Virus record (IMG/VR): IMGVR_UViG_3300030451_001708
Span: 1-56,331 of that record
Length of the DNA: 56,331 nt
Origin: a virus
Reading direction: 5' to 3' (one strand)
This document shows, piece by piece, positions 18,235 through 51,233 of the stretch. Position 1 is the first letter of the stretch. Each line of letters opens with the position of its first letter. The position numbers were made by a program, and so were the translations under genes. Under the pieces are notes generated by a model, which was not told where the DNA came from, did not search any database, and saw nothing but the letters and a program-made list of their open reading frames with translations.

Positions 18235-18405
18235 AACGGTTGTGACGTGCACATCCAGAACCGATGACGTAACGAAAACCGTCGCTTCACTGACTACCCG
18301 ATCGGGGACGATCGGCTTCCTTGACCACACGATCATTTTTATGAAAACCCATTGGCACATGCACGACGATTCTGTGGTGTGTGTAATAGCCGAAAGGAGA
18401 TACAA

Positions 18406-21020: not shown

Positions 21021-21073
21021 GGCGCAAGAGGCGCAAGATCTATTGAGGCGCAAGAGGCGCAAGAGGCGCAAGA
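21021..21073. repeat. Five copies of GGCGCAAGA
   Basis: Copies begin at 21021, 21030, 21047, 21056 and 21065, with an eight-base interruption after the second. The last three lie in the end of the leftward nuclease gene, where they encode Leu-Ala-Pro repeats. Related GCGCAAG sequences occur at 19930-19975 on the other side of the GC-rich island. Confidence 0.7.
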
Positions 21074-21441
21074 AACTCCCATAAAGCCGCAAGGTTCTTG
21101 AACCGCGAACCTTCGGTTTTCAAGAGTCCTTTCTCCAGTAAATCGACCCCTTTTTCACCGTCAAATAAAAATATGTCGCTCGTAGAGAGGTGCTTGACTA
21201 AGTAAAAACTCTTACCGCCTCGTGCCCAATATGCAGTATGCCACGCGATTTGATGAGGCGAGATCTTTACTTTATTGCTTTTTGCTGTCTTCAATTCCAT
21301 CCAGAACGGAAACCCATCCCAGACAATATGAACATCGGGAACACCGCCCCCATGTTTATTTTCTATTCGGGTTGCGAATGCTTTACTCGGGAGACTTTTC
21401 CGAATTGTGCTCCAAAAGTTCGCCTCTGGACCTCTGCTCAT
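21040..21441 (-). CDS. VRR-NUC-type nuclease
   Basis: 133 residues. The core reads TRIENKHGGGVPDVHIVWDG followed by FPFWMELKT and ISPHQIAWH, giving Asp36, Glu49, Lys51 and Gln64: the G-x-P-D...E-x-K...Q layout of VRR-NUC/PD-(D/E)xK nucleases. Such phage enzymes act on branched or structured DNA. The C-terminus LAPLAPLAPQ comes from a DNA tandem repeat and may be dispensable. Its ATG lies inside the small-terminase gene (59-bp overlap), suggesting a joint role in processing packaged DNA. Confidence 0.75.
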   Translation of the reverse strand: MSRGPEANFWSTIRKSLPSKAFATRIENKHGGGVPDVHIVWDGFPFWMELKTAKSNKVKISPHQIAWHTAYWARGGKSFYLVKHLSTSDIFLFDGEKGVDLLEKGLLKTEGSRFKNLAALWEFLAPLAPLAPQ

Positions 21442-21931
21442 TTGTTACATCCTCCGCTGTTCCATCTATGACAAACGCTTGAGGATATTGCTCTTGAAGT
21501 TTTGCTAGTCGTGCGACTATTTCATCTCTGGATAATTGATCCATGGTATTGATGTTTTCTCTTCTATCGATAGTCAAACCGCCCAATGCTGATCGTATTT
21601 TTTCAGCGTTGATTGCGGCAGAAAAATGACCTGCCTCCTCCGCTCCCAAAGAAAGTTTGTGTAATCTTTCAAGTTGACCCAACGTGGTCACACCATATCG
21701 TCGTTCTCTTTCTTCTCTGAGTTCTTGGATATACTCCACAACGTGTGGATAATCCCGACCATTTAAAAGTCTTGATGCATGATCTTTCGCTTGATTAGGG
21801 AGATAACCTGCCTTTCGTGCACATTCAGTGTTCGAATATATTCCCTCAACAATGTGTCTTGCAAAAGTTCTCTGTCGATTTGTCAGTTGTCGATTATGTT
21901 TGTCTTCGACCTTCTTTTTTATCGATGTCAT
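21383..21931 (-). CDS. terS: Probable terminase small subunit
   Basis: 182 residues from MTSIKKKVEDKHNRQLTNRQ; AGAGG lies six bases before the ATG at 21931. The start LTNRQRTFARHIVEGIYSNT, ECARKAGYLPNQAKDHASRL LN and VVEYIQELREERERRYG follows the Terminase_2 pattern: helix-turn-helix DNA binding then a long helix. The C-terminus holds helices and an acidic tail. It would choose packaging sites for the terL at 12845-14308. It is far from terL and transcribed leftward inside the early region. Confidence 0.7.
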   Translation of the reverse strand: MTSIKKKVEDKHNRQLTNRQRTFARHIVEGIYSNTECARKAGYLPNQAKDHASRLLNGRDYPHVVEYIQELREERERRYGVTTLGQLERLHKLSLGAEEAGHFSAAINAEKIRSALGGLTIDRRENINTMDQLSRDEIVARLAKLQEQYPQAFVIDGTAEDVTNEQRSRGELLEHNSEKSPE

Positions 21932-22030
21932 ATTTGCCTCTCGTTGCCCTGATTTGCAAAGTATTCCTATATAGCGGAATTTTCCAGAGAAATCAGAAAA
22001 ACTTTCAAACAAAATGTTAGCTCTGGGCTG

Positions 22031-22196
22031 TGTTTACACTTTAACTGTAAACAGCAGACAGTAAGTGTAAACAGAAATATCTTCTGAAACATCTTATTTA
22101 TATGGGTGTGTTTACAGTATTTACAGTATTTACACCTGATTTAAATGAAAAAAAAAAAAAAACAAAATTTTTCTGGAAAACCCCCTATAGTGTAAA
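22031..22196. repeat. Cluster of TTTACA/TGTAAA motifs (iteron-like)
   Basis: TGTTTACA at 22031-22038 faces TGTAAACA at 22046-22053 as a dyad; TGTAAACA recurs at 22066-22073; TTTACA recurs at 22111, 22120 and 22129 with an exact 9-bp period; TGTAAA is at 22191-22196. Seven copies in 166 bp is far more than expected by chance. Confidence 0.75.
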
Positions 22197-22204
22197 TTTT
22201 GTAT

Positions 22205-22232
22205 TTGACACCAGTTGCCAGTCGTGTATTAC
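22205..22232 (+). promoter_or_regulatory. Sigma-70-like promoter
   Basis: A consensus TTGACA at 22205-22210, 16 bases, then TATTAC at 22227-22232. It lies 45 bp before the ATG at 22277 and just downstream of the TTTACA cluster, so it may be controlled by a protein binding there. Confidence 0.6.
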
Positions 22233-22276
22233 TTGTAATTATTAACAATTTAATCAAAGAGAGAAGGAACTAAACA

Positions 22277-22801
22277 ATGAACTTAGAAATGAAATCAATC
22301 AAGCACTTTGCATCTGGCAGTGAAGAAACATATTGCTACACCGCAGTCGTATATCTGGACGGCAAACCATTTGCTGATGTCAGCAACGATGGGCACGGTG
22401 GATCAGACTATGTACACCCTCATGACAAGTCACCATTGATCAAGGTCAAAGGTGCATGGCGCAAGAAGTATGATGAGATAGAAAAGTACTTCGCATCACT
22501 ACCTAAGCAAGATGTTGGCAAGTACGAGTGGTCACCCGAGGGTTTTGATCAGAAGTTTGAATACTGGTGCTCTGATCAAGTGTCTAATTTCTTGACCAAG
22601 AAAGACATGAAGAGACTTATGAACAGATGTGTCGTTGCTCAGATCAAAGAGGATGGGGAACTTAGGGTTTGTCAGTGGAACAAACCGAAGGGTAAACCTG
22701 ATTGGCTTTTGAAAGAGATGATCAAGAAAGAATATTCAGACGCTACTATTCTGAATGATCTATCCGAGGCGGACGCATTGGACATTTGGAGGACAGTGTA
22801 A
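22277..22801 (+). CDS. Conserved phage early protein, unknown function
   Basis: 174 residues. It has TAVVYLDGKPFADVSNDGHG GSDYVHPH in the first third and helical DVGKYEWSP, FLTKKDMKRLMNRCVVAQIK later. I recall this as a widespread phage protein with a G-H-G-G motif but no known activity. AAGGAA lies nine bases before the ATG, and a promoter lies upstream. First gene of a unit that runs to 28141, with nearly all junctions overlapping. Confidence 0.65.
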   Translation: MNLEMKSIKHFASGSEETYCYTAVVYLDGKPFADVSNDGHGGSDYVHPHDKSPLIKVKGAWRKKYDEIEKYFASLPKQDVGKYEWSPEGFDQKFEYWCSDQVSNFLTKKDMKRLMNRCVVAQIKEDGELRVCQWNKPKGKPDWLLKEMIKKEYSDATILNDLSEADALDIWRTV

Positions 22802-23786: not shown

Positions 23787-24961
23787 GCGCATACTACAAC
23801 GAGATAGACCCATATGCTGCGGCATGGTTAAGAAACTTAATTAGAGATGGTCACATTGCCGATGGTGTGGTCGATGAGAGGAGCATATCGGATGTCAAAC
23901 CAGAAGAACTTTTTCAATTTACTCAGTGTCACTTCTTCGCAGGAATCGGGGTCTGGAGCCATGCGCTCAGAGCCGCAGGGTGGGAAGACGACAGACCAGT
24001 CTGGACGGGATCGTGTCCTTGCCAACCTTTCAGCGGTGCAGGCACAAGAAAAGGGATGGCTGACGAGCGGCACCTCTGGCCTCACTGGTTTCACCTCATC
24101 GAAGAGTGCCGACCTCCAACGGTCTTTGGAGAGCAGGTTGCAAGCAAAGACGGCCTCGGTTGGATCGACCTTGTACAAGCTGACATGGAAGGATCGGACT
24201 ACGCCATCGGGGCTTTCGATCTCTGCTCTGCGGGCTTCGGTGCACCGCACATCAGGCAACGTCTCTGGTTCGTGGCCGACACCGACAACCCGAGATCACA
24301 AGGGTGGATATCAGGGAGGTCGGATACGCAACGGCAAGATCAGCACGGACACGTTGGATGTGGCGGCACAACTGACAGGGTGGGCGACACCGACCACGGC
24401 GGATCACAAGGGAGCGGCGAAACCAGAGTCGGTGAAGGAGTGGAACAGTCGGGGTCACAACTTGCCGGAGCAGTCGCAGATGTCGGGGTGGACAACGCCA
24501 TCGGCAACGGACGGCACGAGGGGAGGAACTGGGATCACGGACGGAATGTCGGGGAGCAGCCTGACCCAGATGGCAAAGATGTCGGGATGGGCAACGCCCA
24601 ACACGATGGACAGTCTGCCTCTTCGGAGCCGAGAAGCAATGATCAAGATGCACCAGACGACGAGAAAGAACAGATCGTTTCCGTGCAATCTGAGGGAGCA
24701 AGTATCTCCCGAGATGATCGAAGCGGTGATGGAGGCAAAGGGGGAGATGACACCGAAACCCGAGCCTATGAGACTAACGGCTTCTGGTCAGCTGCGGACT
24801 GGCTCCTCTGCCGAGATGGAAAGTGGAGGCCAGTTGAACCCGACACATTCCCGTTGGCTCATGGGGCTACCGCCCGAGTGGGACGCCTCCGCGCCTACGG
24901 CAACGCCATCACATCGCAAGTCGCGCAAGGGTTAATCGAAAGTTACATGGAGGTTCGATGA
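23783..24961 (+). CDS. C5-cytosine DNA methyltransferase
   Basis: 392 residues from the GTG at 23783, which overlaps the previous TGA. Motif I FFAGIGVWS (51-59), motif IV GSCPCQPFSG with catalytic Cys80, motif VI VFGEQV (114-119), motif VIII QRLWFVADT, and motifs IX-X near VGRLRAYGNAITSQVAQG are all present. Residues about 166-335 are low-complexity Gly/Asp/Arg/Gln in place of a normal target-recognition domain, and here a second protein is encoded in another frame. It probably protects phage DNA from restriction. An N-terminal SAYYNEIDPYAAAWLRNLI block is shared by phage enzymes of this group. Confidence 0.85.
   Translation: MSAYYNEIDPYAAAWLRNLIRDGHIADGVVDERSISDVKPEELFQFTQCHFFAGIGVWSHALRAAGWEDDRPVWTGSCPCQPFSGAGTRKGMADERHLWPHWFHLIEECRPPTVFGEQVASKDGLGWIDLVQADMEGSDYAIGAFDLCSAGFGAPHIRQRLWFVADTDNPRSQGWISGRSDTQRQDQHGHVGCGGTTDRVGDTDHGGSQGSGETRVGEGVEQSGSQLAGAVADVGVDNAIGNGRHEGRNWDHGRNVGEQPDPDGKDVGMGNAQHDGQSASSEPRSNDQDAPDDEKEQIVSVQSEGASISRDDRSGDGGKGGDDTETRAYETNGFWSAADWLLCRDGKWRPVEPDTFPLAHGATARVGRLRAYGNAITSQVAQGLIESYMEVR
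23892..24935 (+). CDS. Out-of-frame ORF nested in the methyltransferase gene
   Basis: 347 residues entirely inside the methyltransferase gene in another plus-strand frame, open from ATG 23892, with AGGAG eight bases upstream. It is Ser/Thr/Arg-rich and contains GWLTSGTSG, ASVGSTLYKLTWK, four G/S-W-x-T-P units (SWPTPTTRDHKGG, GWATPTTADHKG, GWTTPSATDG, GWATPNTMD, spaced about 36 residues) and NPTHSRWLMGLPPEWD near the end. I recall very similar proteins overlapping phage methyltransferases elsewhere, which argues for a conserved second product. HSRWLMGLPPEW resembles the C-terminal part of other cytosine methylases. Function unknown; translation is unproven. Confidence 0.65.
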   Translation: MSNQKNFFNLLSVTSSQESGSGAMRSEPQGGKTTDQSGRDRVLANLSAVQAQEKGWLTSGTSGLTGFTSSKSADLQRSLESRLQAKTASVGSTLYKLTWKDRTTPSGLSISALRASVHRTSGNVSGSWPTPTTRDHKGGYQGGRIRNGKISTDTLDVAAQLTGWATPTTADHKGAAKPESVKEWNSRGHNLPEQSQMSGWTTPSATDGTRGGTGITDGMSGSSLTQMAKMSGWATPNTMDSLPLRSREAMIKMHQTTRKNRSFPCNLREQVSPEMIEAVMEAKGEMTPKPEPMRLTASGQLRTGSSAEMESGGQLNPTHSRWLMGLPPEWDASAPTATPSHRKSRKG

Positions 24962-25398
24962 TGTCAGAAACATTAAAATTGTTACGGCAAAAGAAACAAA
25001 TGAAACAAGAAGAGGTGGCTGAGAAGGTTGGTATAACGCAAGCAGCCTATAGTCAGTTTGAGCTTGGTCAAACAAAACCAAGAACCATTGTCCGTAAAAA
25101 GTTGGAAGCTCTTTTCGGACAACCAATTCAAGACCTTGCTTCTACACAAAAGAAGAAAAAAGTAGAACCAAACGAATATATATTTTTCAATGTGCAAGAT
25201 GCCCGACTGATCCAACGTGCGCTCTATTGGTATGCGACTGAGATCTCTGACAGAGTTAAAGAAAGAGAGAAAGACGAACTAAGATTTGGAAAAAGAGATC
25301 CAAGTATTTTTATGACGGTTTTTAAATCGGAGCAAGCCGAAGCAGAAAGAGTACATAAACTATTGAAAGAGAAACTTGATAAATTTGAGGAATTATAA
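24958..25398 (+). CDS. XRE-family HTH regulator
   Basis: 146 residues. Residues 4-55 (LKLLRQKKQMKQEEVAEKVG ITQAAYSQFELGQTKPR) form a clear Cro/CI-type helix-turn-helix. The C-terminal half, with YIFFNVQDARLIQRALYWYA, is helical and may dimerise. GGAGG precedes the ATG, which overlaps the methyltransferase stop. It could control the methyltransferase or the TTTACA region. No peptidase domain, so it is not a LexA-type repressor. Confidence 0.75.
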   Translation: MMSETLKLLRQKKQMKQEEVAEKVGITQAAYSQFELGQTKPRTIVRKKLEALFGQPIQDLASTQKKKKVEPNEYIFFNVQDARLIQRALYWYATEISDRVKEREKDELRFGKRDPSIFMTVFKSEQAEAERVHKLLKEKLDKFEEL

Positions 25399-25745
25399 TG
25401 GCTGATGATTATGAACGTCTTGAAGCCTTGTTACGGAAGGCAAAAGATCCTGCGTGTTCTTTTGAGGAAGCATCGATGTGTCGGAAGAAAGCAGACGAAC
25501 TTATCAAAAAACTCGGTGAGCACAGAGCATCGAAAGAAAAGATATTTTTGAAAGGATTTTATACGAAAGAACCGAAGGGCAAACCTGCGTGGGTATTGTT
25601 TGATCTGAGTATACACAGAGAAGATTTCATTCGATGGCTACAAGAACAGGAGGGCGAGTGGATCAATGCACAAGTCTGTCGAAGTAGGAGCACAGACAAG
25701 TGGTACGCTGAAGTAAATCAATGGGAGAAGAAGGATGGAATATAA
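25398..25745 (+). CDS. Small protein with DUF2786-like start
   Basis: 115 residues. The opening ERLEALLRKAKDPACSFEEA SMCRKKADELIKKLG resembles the N-terminal helical repeat of DUF2786 proteins, then KGKPAWVLFDLSIHREDFIR WLQEQEGEWI. It starts at the stop of the XRE gene and overlaps the next gene. Role unknown; the family label is weak. Confidence 0.5.
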   Translation: MADDYERLEALLRKAKDPACSFEEASMCRKKADELIKKLGEHRASKEKIFLKGFYTKEPKGKPAWVLFDLSIHREDFIRWLQEQEGEWINAQVCRSRSTDKWYAEVNQWEKKDGI

Positions 25746-25947
25746 AATAGAGAAGAATATACCCATGCCAGAGAAAAATAAAATGCGTGAGGTTGCATCT
25801 AAAATGGATGTTAAGGACAGTGTGTTTTTTGAAGGATCAAAAGGAAGATCAAAAGGATGTGACCTTGCCGCCAAACTAAAAAAGCTTGGACGGAAAGGTA
25901 GCTGTAGAAAGGTTGAAAATGGATATCGTGTTTGGAGGATAGCATGA
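25735..25947 (+). CDS. Small basic protein, possible DNA-binding
   Basis: 70 residues, MEYKIEKNIPMPEKNKMREV with KMDVKDSVFFEGSKG and a basic C-terminus (KKLGRKGSCRKVENGYRVWR). The layout K-x-I-P-x-P ... M-x-V-x-D-S-x-F is one I recall from small phage proteins without known role. It overlaps both neighbours. Confidence 0.55.
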   Translation: MEYKIEKNIPMPEKNKMREVASKMDVKDSVFFEGSKGRSKGCDLAAKLKKLGRKGSCRKVENGYRVWRIA

Positions 25948-26381
25948 TTGACGGAAAAAAATTGAAAAGATTAAGAAAATTAAAGTTTTATAACCAATGC
26001 GAACTGGCAGAAAAAGCGGGGGTGAGCCAATCTTTACTAAGCAGGCTTGAACGCAATGAGGTTAAGTTTCCTAGATTTATTCCTCTAGAAAAACTTGCAA
26101 TTGCGTTGGAGGATACAAGTTTTTTGTACGCAACAAATGAAGAGGAGCATCAAAAACAAACGTCCGCAGAAAAAGCAAGTTTCATGTCCGATCATTTATC
26201 TAAATTAACCGCAAATGATGTAGATGACAGAGTATGTATGCACTACGTCGTGGATCGATTGGATGAACTGATTGAGACGGTAGACCCTGCAAAGGTTCAG
26301 AAAAGATTATGTGATTTTAAACAAGAACTGGTTTACAACTTAGGTGTGAACACAAGGATCAAGAGAAAAGGAGAAGACTAA
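25944..26381 (+). CDS. Second XRE-family HTH regulator
   Basis: 145 residues from the ATG at 25944, which overlaps the previous TGA. Residues 5-55 (KLKRLRKLKFYNQCELAEKA GVSQSLLSRLERNEV) are a Cro/CI-type helix-turn-helix. The C-terminal region (DDRVCMHYVVDRLDELIETV) is helical. Two XRE proteins about 1 kb apart in one operon could form opposing controls as in lambda-type switches, although no integrase is seen. Confidence 0.75.
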   Translation: MIDGKKLKRLRKLKFYNQCELAEKAGVSQSLLSRLERNEVKFPRFIPLEKLAIALEDTSFLYATNEEEHQKQTSAEKASFMSDHLSKLTANDVDDRVCMHYVVDRLDELIETVDPAKVQKRLCDFKQELVYNLGVNTRIKRKGED

Positions 26382-31383: not shown

Positions 31384-32916
31384 ATGTCACAATCAAAAAG
31401 ACTGCTTGCCGCTTTTGTTGGGGCTAAGAACGCACATGGTACAACTGTCGTTGGTCGCACAAATCGTAACGGTAAAGCAGAATCACAGAGCAGAATAATT
31501 AGGGAACCTCTTACTGAAGAGTTAGTTCAGCAGCACATTGACGGGGTCAATGGTGTTGGTGCTATTCCTATTGATGAAGATAACATGTGCAAGTGGGGTG
31601 CGTTGGACGTAGATATCTATGACCTCGATCACAAGAGTTTACAGAACAAAATACAGAAGTTAAAGCTTCCGCTGCTGCATTGCAGATCTAAATCTGGTGG
31701 AGCGCATTTGTATTTGTTTCTCAAAGAGTTTGAACAAGCCGCAGTGGTGCGAGAGTATCTTACCGAGATGTCTATTGCACTGGGACAAAGCGGTTGCGAG
31801 ATCTTTCCAAAGCAAGACACAATCATCACGGAGCGTGGAGACGTAGGCAACTTTATCAACATGCCATACTTCAATGCGGAGATGCCACAACGGTATTGTT
31901 TCAACAGCAAGGTTGAGGCCATGGAACTGGATGAGTTTCTTGATGCGATAGACAAGAAGCAGACTAGCCTTGCAGACCTTGAAGCACTCCAGATGTCTAA
32001 GCCCAGGGAGATCTTTCCCAAGGGGCCGCCATGCTTGAAACATATATTTGCAGACGGACCGCAATCAGAACCAAGAAACAAGTTGCTGTTTATGATGTGC
32101 AAGTATGCGAAACTAAGCAACCCAGATCACTGGCAACAACAAGCGGAGGAGATGAATAGGGCGATGTTCAACCCACCTTTGAGTTCGCAAGAGGTAACAA
32201 ATACAATCAAGCAACATGAGAAAAAAGAATACGGATATACATGTAAGGACGAACCGTTCAAAAGCCACTGCGATCCTACGGTTTGTGCTCAACAGAAGTT
32301 TGGTATCGGAGGAGATGCGCCAGATGCACCTCGTGTTGATGGCCTGAGTATCATGTTATCAGAACCACGTTTATATTTTATGGATGTAAACGGTCAGCGG
32401 TTACAGTTAAGCACGGAGCAGCTACAGAACCAAACGCTCTGGCAACGTGCCTGTATGGAGCAAAAGAATTTTATGCCTCCGACCATGAAGCCACAGAAGT
32501 GGCAACAAACTATCAATACACTTATGCAAAATGCCACATACCTCGATGTTCCCGAGGAGTTGACTGTGGCAGGGGAGTTCAAGCAACATATGCAAACATA
32601 TTGTACAAGTCATATCAGAGCACTGGCTCCAGAAGAAATGGAGATGGGCAAGCCTTGGACAGACGCCGGAGTTACTAAGTTCACCTTGCCTGGACTCTTG
32701 GAGTTTTTGCATCAACGCAGATTTACTGGTCATACCAGAGCGCAGATCATACAGATGATTCGTGATCTTGGTGGTGACAGTACAGTTCAAGCGATTGTAA
32801 AGAGGACACCAAAGGGTGAAGTAAGAAGCACCATACGTTGTTGGTGGATACCTGCATTTGACGAGGGAGAAATGACACTAGGAAAAGAGGAGTTCGAAAA
32901 TGACATCCCCTTCTAA
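31384..32916 (+). CDS. AEP-type primase
   Basis: 510 residues. KWGALDVDIYDLD gives the D-x-D metal site (Asp75, Asp77), and CRSKSGGAHLYLFL gives the S-x-H motif (His108), the archaeo-eukaryotic primase arrangement. A PriCT-like part follows (NKLLFMMCKYAK, then YTCKDEPFKSHCDPTVCAQQ KFGIG with cysteines that may bind metal). A C-terminal unknown domain ends EFENDIPF, again an SSB-type acidic tip. No helicase motif, so it must work with a separate helicase. Confidence 0.75.
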   Translation: MSQSKRLLAAFVGAKNAHGTTVVGRTNRNGKAESQSRIIREPLTEELVQQHIDGVNGVGAIPIDEDNMCKWGALDVDIYDLDHKSLQNKIQKLKLPLLHCRSKSGGAHLYLFLKEFEQAAVVREYLTEMSIALGQSGCEIFPKQDTIITERGDVGNFINMPYFNAEMPQRYCFNSKVEAMELDEFLDAIDKKQTSLADLEALQMSKPREIFPKGPPCLKHIFADGPQSEPRNKLLFMMCKYAKLSNPDHWQQQAEEMNRAMFNPPLSSQEVTNTIKQHEKKEYGYTCKDEPFKSHCDPTVCAQQKFGIGGDAPDAPRVDGLSIMLSEPRLYFMDVNGQRLQLSTEQLQNQTLWQRACMEQKNFMPPTMKPQKWQQTINTLMQNATYLDVPEELTVAGEFKQHMQTYCTSHIRALAPEEMEMGKPWTDAGVTKFTLPGLLEFLHQRRFTGHTRAQIIQMIRDLGGDSTVQAIVKRTPKGEVRSTIRCWWIPAFDEGEMTLGKEEFENDIPF

Positions 32917-33124
32917 TAGGCTTTTGAGAGTGGGTGAGGTGGCAGATCTATTGGGTGTGTCACGATCTTACGTCTACAAGCTATCACAAAACTCAGACAG
33001 TTTTCCAAAGCCCATAGTTCTGGGGCCAGAAGACAACAAGCGATCATCGAGTCGTTGGGTTTTGTCTGAAATAGAAGACTGGGTAAACACCAGACCAAGA
33101 GGCAAAGAGTATGATACAGAATAG
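32900..33124 (+). CDS. AlpA/MerR-like DNA-binding protein
   Basis: 74 residues: LLRVGEVADLLGVSRSYVYK LSQNSDSFPKPIVLGPEDNKRSSSRWVLSEIEDWVNTR. This is the winged-helix layout of AlpA-type phage regulators and excisionases, with the recognition helix at SRSYVYKLS. Without an integrase in the window, a transcriptional role is more likely than excision. It overlaps the primase end (17 bp) and the next helicase. Confidence 0.75.
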   Translation: MTSPSNRLLRVGEVADLLGVSRSYVYKLSQNSDSFPKPIVLGPEDNKRSSSRWVLSEIEDWVNTRPRGKEYDTE

Positions 33125-34640
33125 TAAGTTAATACTTGGACCTCCAGGTTGCGGTAAAACCTATCGATTGATCCAAGAGATAGAAGAGGCGTTGCAAAGC
33201 GGAGTGCATCCTTCTCGTATAGGTGTGATATCTTTTACAAGAAAAGCCATTGAGGAGATGATTACCCGTGCGTGTTCACAGTTTAATTTAGAGTCCAAAG
33301 ACTTTCCGTTTATGAGAACCAGTCACTCCCTTGGGTTTCATGGTCTGGGTTTGCAACCCGAAGATGTAATGAAACTTGCAGACTACAAAGCCATTGGAGA
33401 ACCTATTGGTCTGTCGTTTGAGAAAGAGGATGAGATAGATCTAGACGATGGGATGCGAACTCCTAATTTAGGAGGCACGGGTCAAGACTACTTACAGATG
33501 GACAGCCGTTCGAGGTATCGCATGGTTAGTCTGGAAGATGAGTTCAGCGCAACAAACAACTTCACTTTGTTCTACGCCAAGGCGGTACAGTTTCAAGGGA
33601 CACTGCAAGAATACAAAAGAACCACTGGCAAAGTAGACTTTATCGACATGATTGAACGGTACATTGAAATGGGTGAGTATCCAAATCTAGACTACTTGTT
33701 TGTGGACGAGGCACAAGATTTCACACCGCTACAGTGGGAGATGGTCAAGGGCATGTCTGAATGTGCAGATAAGATAATTATCGCAGGCGACGACGACCAA
33801 GCTGTGCATCGTTGGACTGGCGTAAACGTAAACCTGTTTATCCAAAGCTCTAGTAATATTGAGTATCTGACACAGTCTTACCGCATTCCGAGACGTGTTC
33901 ATGAACTAGCAGCTAGTATAGCCAACCGTATTGATGGGCGTATTGAAAAGAAGTTTGATCCTCGTGATGAATTAGGCACCGTTGAATATGTATATTACAT
34001 GGATCAGATACCTTTGAACGAAGGGTCTTGGACGATCATGGCAAGAACAAATAGGTATGTCAGGGACGTTGCATCTTTCCTACGAAACTCTGGTTTCAAA
34101 TATTCTATCAAGGGCAGACCTAGCATCTCAGAAAAACTGGTTGAGAACATGATGACTTGGGATGATCTGTGCCAAGGTAAAAAGATCAATACAGAACGGA
34201 TCAAAAAACTTTACGCTGCTGTGCCAAAGCAAGGGGAGGATGCCGTTGTCAAACGAGGTGCCTCAAAACTTTTGGAGGTGTTGACTCCCGAGGACGAAGT
34301 AGACATGGACACACTTCTGGATGAGTTTGGTTTGCTCCGAGATGCAAGTCACGCGGCATATGACATACTAAAAGTAAGTTACAAGGAACGAGATTACATC
34401 GAAGCAATCTATCGTAGAGGTGAGGATCTAACTTCTAAACCCCGTATCAAAGTCTCAACGTTTCACGCGATGAAAGGTGGAGAGGATGACAACTGTGTAG
34501 TGTTAGATAAGTCTACCGCTGCATGTGTGAACAGTGACCACCCAGATGATGAGCATCGAGCCTTTTATGTCGGCGTAACAAGAGCACGACATAATCTATA
34601 TATCGTTTTAACAGGAAACAAATACAGGTATATGTTATGA
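33111..34640 (+). CDS. UvrD/Rep-type SF1 helicase
   Basis: 509 residues. Walker A GPPGCGKT at 10-17, motif Ia GVISFTRKAIEEM, motif II VDEAQDFTPLQW, motif III AGDDDQAVHRW, motif IV SYRIPRRV, motif V TFHAMKGGEDDNCVVL, motif VI YVGVTRARHNLYIVL. All SF1A motifs are in order, in a compact protein without the long insertions of UvrD. It probably unwinds the fork for the family A polymerase. It overlaps the AlpA gene by 14 bp and the next gene by 4. Confidence 0.88.
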   Translation: MIQNSKLILGPPGCGKTYRLIQEIEEALQSGVHPSRIGVISFTRKAIEEMITRACSQFNLESKDFPFMRTSHSLGFHGLGLQPEDVMKLADYKAIGEPIGLSFEKEDEIDLDDGMRTPNLGGTGQDYLQMDSRSRYRMVSLEDEFSATNNFTLFYAKAVQFQGTLQEYKRTTGKVDFIDMIERYIEMGEYPNLDYLFVDEAQDFTPLQWEMVKGMSECADKIIIAGDDDQAVHRWTGVNVNLFIQSSSNIEYLTQSYRIPRRVHELAASIANRIDGRIEKKFDPRDELGTVEYVYYMDQIPLNEGSWTIMARTNRYVRDVASFLRNSGFKYSIKGRPSISEKLVENMMTWDDLCQGKKINTERIKKLYAAVPKQGEDAVVKRGASKLLEVLTPEDEVDMDTLLDEFGLLRDASHAAYDILKVSYKERDYIEAIYRRGEDLTSKPRIKVSTFHAMKGGEDDNCVVLDKSTAACVNSDHPDDEHRAFYVGVTRARHNLYIVLTGNKYRYML

Positions 34641-50141: not shown

Positions 50142-51233
50142 TTACGCAGCTATATCCGTCCAAGTTGTATTTGGACTTGGTGTTTCCTCAGACCAAGAAG
50201 TTCCTGGGTTTGGTGTTTCCTCAGACCAAGAAGTTCCTGGGTTTGGTGTTACTCCACTCCAAGTGTTGCTTGGGTTTGGTGTTATATTACTCCAAGTATT
50301 GTTTGGATCTGGAACTATTCTACCCCAAATTATTGGAGATGTCACCTCACCTGTTGCAGAAAGTCCTGTAACTGAAACCGTAGCACCAGCAGTTGCAGTT
50401 GCATCACCTAAAGCACCTGTTGCAGAAAGTCCTGTTACACCAACAATTGTTATCGTTGCAATTGTAACTGTCCCCACAGAACCTGTTGCACCTAATCCAG
50501 TAGGAGAGACAAGTGCGTCAGCAGTTACGGTTACATCATCTGTAGCGCCTGTTGCACTTAATCCAGTGGGAGAGACAACCGCATCAGCAGTTACAGTTAC
50601 AGAATTTACCTCACCCGTAGCCTCTAAACCTGTTGGAGGAACGTTTGCATTACCTGTTATTGTTGGGCTTCCTAAACCACCAGTGGCTTCCAAACCTGTC
50701 GGGGTAACAATTATTCGAGGGGTAACAACAACAGAATTTACCTCACCCGTAGCAGAAAGCCCTGTAGGTGAGACAAGCGCATCGGCGGCCACAGTAACCG
50801 TCCCAACTCCACCTGTTGCTTCTAGACCAGTGACAATAACAAATGCTGCGCCACCAGAAGTAAGACTTCCTACAAATCCTTGAGCTGCTAATGATCCTGT
50901 TGATACGACTGCTTGTCCACTTACAGTGACAGAATTTAAATTACCAGTGGATTCTAAGCCTGTAACAGAAAGAGAGGAGTTAGCACTTACGCTAACAGAA
51001 CCAACAGAGGCTGTTGCTGATAAACCTGTAGCAGGAGTATCAGATGCTCCAATAACACTTACTGACCCTAAGCCACTCGTAGACGCTAGACCTGTAACAG
51101 ATACCGATACATCAGTGCTTACACTTACTGACCCTAAAGCACCTGTTGCGGCTAGACCTGTAACGGATACTGATACATCAGTGCTGCCACTACTCGCAAG
51201 TGTTGCGGAGGCTACAGGTGTAAAGCCTAACAT
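50142..51233 (-). CDS. Tandem-repeat virion protein
   Basis: 363 residues consisting almost wholly of repeats. About 13 units of 22 residues share the pattern VSPTGLSATGEVNSVTVTAD, then five 11-residue units (TPNPGTSWSEE and variants) close the protein. The 22-residue units are beta-strand-like with a G-x-x-A-T-G core. It lies between fibre genes; the related repeats in two other virion proteins suggest a shared surface or attachment role. Confidence 0.65.
   Translation of the reverse strand: MLGFTPVASATLASSGSTDVSVSVTGLAATGALGSVSVSTDVSVSVTGLASTSGLGSVSVIGASDTPATGLSATASVGSVSVSANSSLSVTGLESTGNLNSVTVSGQAVVSTGSLAAQGFVGSLTSGGAAFVIVTGLEATGGVGTVTVAADALVSPTGLSATGEVNSVVVTPRIIVTPTGLEATGGLGSPTITGNANVPPTGLEATGEVNSVTVTADAVVSPTGLSATGATDDVTVTADALVSPTGLGATGSVGTVTIATITIVGVTGLSATGALGDATATAGATVSVTGLSATGEVTSPIIWGRIVPDPNNTWSNITPNPSNTWSGVTPNPGTSWSEETPNPGTSWSEETPSPNTTWTDIAA
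50148..50312. repeat. Five 33-bp units encoding a Trp repeat
   Basis: Units read PDPNNTWSNI, TPNPSNTWSGV, TPNPGTSWSEE twice, TPSPNTTWTDI. The two TSWSEE units are identical over 33 bp, pointing to a recent duplication. Each unit places a Trp three to four residues after N-P. Confidence 0.75.
50320..51230. repeat. About thirteen 66-bp units encoding ATG-x-VG repeats
   Basis: The 22-residue period runs through nearly the whole gene. Units diverge at many residues but keep TGL-x-ATG and a following V-x-V strand. Several neighbouring units share blocks such as ctgttgcacttaatccag, consistent with past unequal recombination. Confidence 0.7.

Follow-up and report, generated by a model that had tools for sequence, protein, structure and literature searches.

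A candidate iteron-type replication origin beside terS of a tailed phage and its covariation with the predicted wing of an AEP primase

Introduction

What does a dense cluster of TTTACA/TGTAAA repeats do in the non-coding DNA between the terminase small subunit gene and the divergent early operon of a tailed phage? The window considered here, meaning the whole stretch of DNA that was analysed, is a virus record of 56,331 bases. It encodes TerL, TerS, a portal, a major head protein, a primase, a helicase, a family-A polymerase and an SNF2-type helicase, which identifies the virus as a tailed phage, probably a marine one; its TerS is kin to the TerS of the Pelagibacter phages HTVC027P and HTVC023P, of phage 023Pt_psg01 and of phage DSL-LC04. 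How phages without a known initiator choose their origin is, to our knowledge, mostly unknown. The initial annotation of the region had offered two answers, a replication origin or a master switch. We propose that the region is probably an iteron-type replication origin whose sites are recognised by the phage's own archaeo-eukaryotic-type (AEP) primase. This proposal is drawn from sequence comparison: the cluster exceeds chance, its layout is kept in relatives with other letters, many neighbouring gene products are excluded as readers of the sites, and primase residues covary with site bases. The conserved layout and the covariation with the primase uphold the origin half of the annotation; the switch operated by XRE or RHH proteins finds no support.

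Organisation of the repeat cluster

The cluster separates a leftward from a rightward unit, and the primase gene lies about 9 kb away from it. The genes concerned are:

21383..21931, minus strand: terS, terminase small subunit (phrog_51, E 2.4e-14; PF03592, E 5.1e-08), leftward from the candidate origin
22277..22801, plus strand: first gene of the rightward early operon (phrog_17767)
31384..32916, plus strand: AEP primase, 510 aa (PF22548 AEP-TOTE, E 2.6e-15; phrog_21866 primase, E 1.4e-91)
33111..34640, plus strand: UvrD-like SF1 helicase, adjoining the primase (PF00580, E 5.9e-26)

The start of terS is likely the inner ATG at 21931, where by eye the conserved part of the relatives' proteins begins; with this start the intergenic region is about 345 bp long and includes a second, inverted CTATA(T)AG element. 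The parts of the region are as follows:

21967..21989, minus strand: CTCTGG...CTATATAG element, leftward copy, inverted relative to 22172-22190
22031..22073, plus strand: left site set, with TGTTTAC at 22031-22037 (GTAAACA on the minus strand) and GTAAACA at 22047-22053 and 22067-22073
22074..22108, no strand: AT-rich centre TTATTTATATG, the presumed melting region, between the two opposed site sets
22109..22133, minus strand: right site set in opposite orientation with a 9-bp period, GTAAACA at 22109-22115 and GTAAATA at 22118-22124 and 22127-22133
22148..22162, plus strand: A-tract of 15 A, beside the right site set
22172..22190, plus strand: TCTGG...CTATAG element, rightward copy, a candidate promoter or origin part
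22191..22198, plus strand: outlying site TGTAAATT, after the CTATAG element, where several relatives have another class's letters
22205..22232, plus strand: promoter-like TTGACA-16-TATTAC of the rightward operon, TTGACA at 22205-22210 and TATTAC at 22227-22232 (by eye)

TTTACA/TGTAAA starts at 22033, 22046, 22066, 22111, 22120, 22129 and 22191, that is, seven times in 164 bp; in 20,000 dinucleotide shuffles of positions 22013-22276 (264 bp), the count never rose above five. When any hexamer with at least three different letters was admitted, none of 3,000 shuffles reached seven (maximum 6), and the cluster is the densest of this kind in the window, the next independent one having six copies. 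The seven elements, the three-copy array with a 9-bp period and the 15-A run of the initial annotation are all present, and its 23-bp dyad is found as a partial dyad at 22031-22053; two of the three right sites read GTAAATA, not GTAAACA. Two marks of an iteron origin are found here: short sites repeated within a small stretch of non-coding DNA (the seven hexamers) and an AT-rich presumed melting region, consisting of the TTATTTATATG centre and the A-tract, with similar centres in many relatives by eye. Elsewhere in the window, the second densest hexamer cluster is at 50353-50398 (GTTGCA, six times within about 160 bases), and GGCGCAAGA-like short repeats occur at 21021-21075 in the 3' end of the nuclease gene.

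The TTGACA-16-TATTAC promoter that had been annotated is there by eye, and its TTGACA is found again in many relatives (by eye); a consensus promoter scan, in which position 6 of the second hexamer must be T, omits it. That scan returned four promoter-like matches against 1.6 +/- 1.3 in shuffles. The divergent CTATAG elements may serve as promoters of the leftward and rightward units, or they may belong to the origin; by eye, the TCTGG block precedes no other CTATAG or CTATATAG in the window. A similar inverted TCTGG...CTATA(T)AG pair is seen around other DNA in DSL-LC04 (L330, 7762-8420). Cumulative GC skew, which had been put forward as a check on the origin, has its minimum at 18,364 and does not single out the place of the cluster; it follows gene direction and for that reason cannot decide on the origin.

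Relatives with the same layout and other letters

With the first gene, TerS, SNF2 and methyltransferase as queries, 269 loci were obtained, and terS is present in 182 of the 270 sequences, window included. Beside terS, a set of sites in one orientation is usually followed by an AT-rich centre and a set of opposite sites, after which come an A-tract, a CTATAG element and an outlying site or two. With one mismatch allowed, 33 of 35 distinct genomes (all but L299 and L195) have two or more forward sites and after them two or more reverse sites, and 22 of the 35 have three or more of each; 32 of the 35 have a run of at least seven A or T within the 650-base region. The sites are often 9-11 bp apart and clustered in opposed sets, and a TATAAATA-type centre is seen by eye in many relatives too.

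The seven-letter core varies between relatives, and nearly all copies within one genome share the same core. Those seen include GTAAACA, GTAATCA, GTACTCA, GTCCTCA, GTCATCA, GTTCTCA and GTATCCA. Classes were assigned automatically as the commonest GT-7-mer, except that GTTTACA was set by hand to core AAA, GTACGTT to ACT and GTTGAGT (L299, with core TGACTCA, and its duplicates) to ACT; 174 of the 182 sequences fell into one of 16 classes, the commonest being GTAAACA (78) and GTAATCA (36), all counts including duplicates of the same contigs. A comparison of the motif in relatives had been suggested in the initial annotation: the literal TTTACA is not kept among them, a result that the annotation itself would have taken as speaking against its reading; what is kept is the array, with letters that covary with the primase.

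The change of letters is concerted. In L166, L160 and L140 the flanking DNA is much alike and the sites are GTAAACA, GTTCTCA and GTACTCA, respectively; L155 resembles these three in that the sites are mainly what changes and the DNA between them is much alike. This pattern implicates a protein that recognises the sites and is altered in step with them. Slippage or palindrome correction was rejected as its cause, since by eye the spacers keep their own letters while the cores switch.

The outlying sites to the right of the CTATAG element often carry another class's core (L225, L227, L140, L155, L160, L067, L068 and L072); in L227, for example, the main sites are GTCATCA and the right outlying sites GTACTCA and GTAATCA. 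The outlying site at 22191..22198 seems to be the least constrained one. As their letters are often those of another class, the outlying right sites resemble a record of earlier specificities; they are either relics or sites served by another reader.

Candidate readers of the sites

The rule applied to local alignments was that copies of the reader without a difference should not go with different site letters. Copies with 0 differences go with other site letters for the products of terS, the nuclease gene, 20230 and the first gene 22277, for the RHH and AlpA-like proteins, and likewise for SNF2, 29947, 30512, 34637 and 28198, all of which are therefore excluded. The first gene product, for instance, is identical in L225 and L226, whose sites differ. 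A packaging (pac) site bound by TerS, which the position of the array directly upstream of terS might suggest, is strongly disfavoured and extremely improbable, because TerS copies with 0 differences over 174-188 aligned residues accompany different sites in six class pairs. The RHH-bound switch of the initial annotation fails in the same manner, as RHH has 0 differences over 48-52 residues and yet different site letters in four class pairs.

An XRE-bound switch, also part of that annotation, likewise finds no support, a judgement based mainly on the patchiness of the gene: XRE gene 24958 had a relative in one of 112 loci, though many of these loci end before the gene, and 22 of them reach the winged-helix gene that follows. 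Across site classes, no difference is seen in two small proteins that match XRE gene 25932 best among the window's genes. Gene content between the methyltransferase gene and the winged-helix gene (24958-26381, with both XRE genes inside) is highly variable among relatives.

If the array were an operator, the primase or another protein would use it to regulate terS and the early operon, which are transcribed in opposite directions, with no start of replication; we regard this as unlikely. The array does have divergent units on its two sides and an oppositely directed CTATAG pair around it that is seen nowhere else in the window (by eye), a promoter-like TTGACA...TATTAC lies inside the region, and the outlying site touches the right CTATAG element; but the protein that covaries with the sites (see below) is the primase and no regulator, RHH and the AlpA-like protein are excluded, XRE gene 24958 is patchy, and two site sets round an AT-rich centre are an origin layout, as in the PICI origins described in an excerpt of PMC6092414.

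Several proteins are left by the rule, with the following differences between their closest copies: UvrD 5/508, polA 4/636, terL 3/488, methyltransferase 1/304, winged helix 26381 2/81, 26622 1/72, 27505 4/131, MPN 22786 5/142 and portal 11/813, the structural genes being sampled in few genomes. The primase and its neighbour UvrD were compared in six near-identical pairs of relatives whose sites differ, with the primase differences that fall in residues 460-492 (33 of 510) counted separately:

L123/L126: UvrD 7, primase 11, of which 7 in residues 460-492
L131/L134: UvrD 5, primase 14, of which 12 in residues 460-492
L155/L140: UvrD 13, primase 16, of which 10 in residues 460-492
L140/L162: UvrD 7, primase 19, of which 6 in residues 460-492
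L155/L162: UvrD 12, primase 21, of which 6 in residues 460-492
L199/L236: UvrD 57 (of 507), primase 31, of which 10 in residues 460-492

Primase changes exceed UvrD changes in five of the six pairs and the order is reversed in L199/L236; in the same-site pair L166/L162 the primase has 0 differences. The AlpA-like protein and 30512 show 0-1 differences where compared. Together with the covariation described below, these alignments make the AEP primase encoded at 31384-32916 the most likely reader.

Covariation between the predicted primase wing and the sites

For this comparison the sites are written as the 7-bp GTN1N2N3N4N5, the window having GTAAACA. Fifty-nine loci with both array and primase, together with 7 linked by exact overlaps, gave 35 distinct genomes; rows with an incomplete primase C-terminus or without an array in the available DNA were left out. 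The codons concerned are:

32767..32841, plus strand: codons of the predicted primase wing, residues 462-486, of which residues 468, 470, 481 and 483 covary with site letters

Among the 35 genomes, all 11 with A at N3 have Ala or Ser at residue 470, all 19 with T have Asn and all 4 with C have His; the sole G-core genome has Asn, the residue of the T cores. On a tree built without the C-terminal part of the primase, the core changed at least 18 times, and nine of nine independent pairs agree with the rule for residue 470 and N3 (p 0.0039 by a sign test). An earlier genome table had suggested this rule, with no formal pre-registration, and 11 later rows and L525 all fit it.

When all 510 columns were scanned, residue 470 came first for N3 (0.758, next 0.287), 468 for N2 (0.468, next 0.277), 483 for N1 (0.403, next 0.165) and 481 for N4 (0.633, next 0.297), the N1 and N4 results resting on few non-majority genomes. 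In 14 other families (15 to 35 genomes each) that served as a control, the best N3 column scored 0.33. Other families match or beat the primase at N1 (nuclease 0.57; f27505 1.00, n=15) and at N4 (polA 1.00, n=22; f34637 0.63), and f27505 exceeds it at N2 (0.55, n=15). For these reasons, the 470-N3 link is regarded as firm on the sequences compared, the 468-N2 link as fair, and the 483-N1 and 481-N4 links as suggestive; L227 breaks the rules for 483 and 481.

Substitutions are concentrated in the same segment. Between close relatives whose cores differ (six pairs), 45/132 positions are substituted in residues 462-486 and 61/2,730 in residues 1-455; for four same-core pairs the counts are 0/88 and 37/1,820. 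The pairs share members (L383, L390 and L412 give three of the six). The same wing residues recur in separate clades.

That the reader is a host protein or an unsampled phage protein, with the primase hitchhiking or having a linked role, is very unlikely in our judgement. It draws on the proteins left by the identity rule (UvrD, polA, terL, portal, methyltransferase, 27505 and others), on the thin sampling of the structural genes, and on L199/L236, where UvrD has the more changes; against it, the primase outpaces UvrD in the other five pairs and also the AlpA-like protein and 30512, its changes are concentrated in the wing and involve the same residues in separate clades.

Asn suits adenine, His suits guanine, and Ala or Ser suits the methyl group of thymine. 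The chemistry at residue 470 would therefore be sensible if this residue touches the partner strand.

Primase structure and a model of origin recognition

Pfam assigns residues 31-171 of the primase to PF22548 AEP-TOTE (57.1 bits against a cut-off of 27), and this is the only domain that it finds, with no helicase domain detected. The primase profile also matches chain 7nqd_A (E 1.9e-05), which we take to be a CRISPR-associated primase. D75, D77 and H108, presumably the catalytic residues, are invariant in 39 primase sequences (DxD and histidine motifs). For the C-terminal part, AlphaFold2 (38 and 39 sequences) predicts a winged-helix-like domain with helices at 435-444 and 452-461 and a long two-stranded wing (465-475 and 478-490), at moderate confidence (pLDDT 74, pTM 0.60). 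Residues 468, 470, 481 and 483 are all located on this predicted wing, 470 being opposite 483 across the hairpin by residue count. Structural comparison of the model by VIA gave weak matches, the best listed being TcpK with oriT DNA (5vfx, Z 7.6), with SCCmec Cch (5dgk, Z 6.8) and yeast ORC (Z 5.9) among the others listed; Z values of this size can reflect a common arrangement. Foldseek gave no match with E <= 0.001 for the C-terminal model in the PDB, and the P4 alpha structure is not among the VIA matches listed, which says nothing about kinship.

We propose the following model. Two opposed sets of 7-bp sites flank the AT-rich centre, with the A-tract on one side, and the C-terminal winged-helix-like domain of the AEP primase would bind the sites, its beta-hairpin wing reading the bases: residue 470 would read N3, 468 would read N2, and perhaps 483 reads N1 and 481 reads N4. 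The bound primase would mark the origin; the AT-rich centre would then melt, probably helped by the SF1 helicase encoded beside the primase, and the primase would lay the first primers for the phage family-A polymerase. Related phages switch site letters and wing residues together.

Alternatively, the primase might read the sites as single-stranded priming signals, that is, as template recognition in place of duplex origin sites. The sequence-specific primase activity of the pRN1 AEP replication protein (PMC4234260, excerpt) would be a precedent, but the covarying residues are on the predicted C-terminal wing, apart from the AEP part at 31-171, and the sites form closely spaced, opposed sets; we consider this quite unlikely.

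Comparison with known systems and implications

Satellite phage P4 alpha has its helicase activity within one protein. Its winged helix binds origin repeats, and it has a primase of the bacterial TOPRIM type (both from an excerpt of PMC4234260), whereas only an AEP domain is found by Pfam here. ORF904 of pRN1 is, according to the same excerpt, an AEP primase with a C-terminal winged helix, a combination predicted here as well; proteins of the ORF904 type, however, possess an SF3 helicase as well, and a stem-loop that lacks iterons has been proposed as the origin of pRN1 (PMC4234260, excerpt).

The pri-rep-ori of PICI / SaPI elements has short iterons in two sets, and the AT-rich DNA that separates them is regarded as the place of melting; there are several Pri-Rep variants (PMC6092414, excerpt). 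The two iteron sets around an AT-rich region are shared with the present region, but the initiator there is a Pri-Rep/Rep protein with the origin just 3' of its gene, whereas here an AEP-type primase is encoded 9 kb away in a tailed phage. For SCCmec Cch2, the C-terminal domain on its own is able to bind the putative origin, provided that the direct repeats are present; the reader in that system is a helicase, and its primase is separate and non-AEP (PMC7581432, excerpt). For RepA of PLE, which are Vibrio phage satellites, the origin and the initiator's DNA-binding domain covary, and swapping of specificity is thought to have happened several times (PMC8263062, excerpt). PLE differ in having a RepA_N domain with two allele groups, whereas here a few wing residues change in a nearly unchanged protein.

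Geminivirus Rep is the rolling-circle Rep of ssDNA plant viruses; it is unrelated to the primase here and serves another mode of replication. Geminivirus iterons are reported to differ between close relatives (PMC12548392).

Two iteron sets round an AT-rich region, origin binding by a winged helix and covariation of initiator and origin are thus known already in other systems. Neither this origin nor this code was found among the matches listed from the open-access literature, and the same holds for the combination proposed here: a tailed phage whose AEP primase, in which no helicase domain was detected, would recognise switching iterons by means of a few wing residues.

Joint switching of sites and wing would split the population into groups expected not to recognise each other's origins. 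GTAAATA (L217), GTCATCA (L227) and GTAATAG (L228) occur together in one sample, IMG/VR 3300028548, which suggests that the classes are incompatible in replication or that they evade something directed at the origin. We tentatively suggest, as a reading with somewhat less than even chances, that the primase is a sequence-programmable origin reader in a widespread phage family, in which residues 483, 468, 470 and 481 each read one base (N1 to N4) and point changes yield many specificities and incompatibility groups within one sample, perhaps under pressure from satellites, competitors or defences able to recognise the common origin. Here sequence by itself allows an origin and its initiator to be proposed for a large, uncultured group of phages. 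Natural variation supplies what is in effect a mutational study of how a protein recognises DNA, with one residue set against one base in nine independent pairs, and it makes testable why a phage would keep changing its replication specificity.

Repeats in more distant relatives

Scans of genome and viral contigs extended the search for the array. Six distant primases came from the genome contigs, and the strict scan saw no array in the five whose upstream DNA exceeds 4.5 kb. When the new loci of both scans are pooled, 22 have more than 4.5 kb before the primase and 3 of these have an array by the strict scan, which missed the weak array of L524 (a contig of L122); the three are L525 and, as contigs already counted as L126 and L207, L529 and L557. 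With an array in only 3 of 22, more distant kin may be without it or have it elsewhere.

By eye, in the stretches inspected near terS, a GT-7-mer array was not seen in HTVC027P, HTVC023P, DSL-LC04 or 023Pt_psg01. A primase query gave no match in the L241 record; in this and other more distant relatives (L241, L201, L202, L209 and L240), GTTGACG-type repeats lie beside terS. In HTVC027P (L329, 9817-10031), TGTAACA/TGAAACA-like repeats lie between gp28 and the exonuclease gene. In HTVC023P (L331, 8430-9000), CTAGGAAA repeats are located upstream of terS beside CTATAG, and these may represent an origin of this type written in very different letters.
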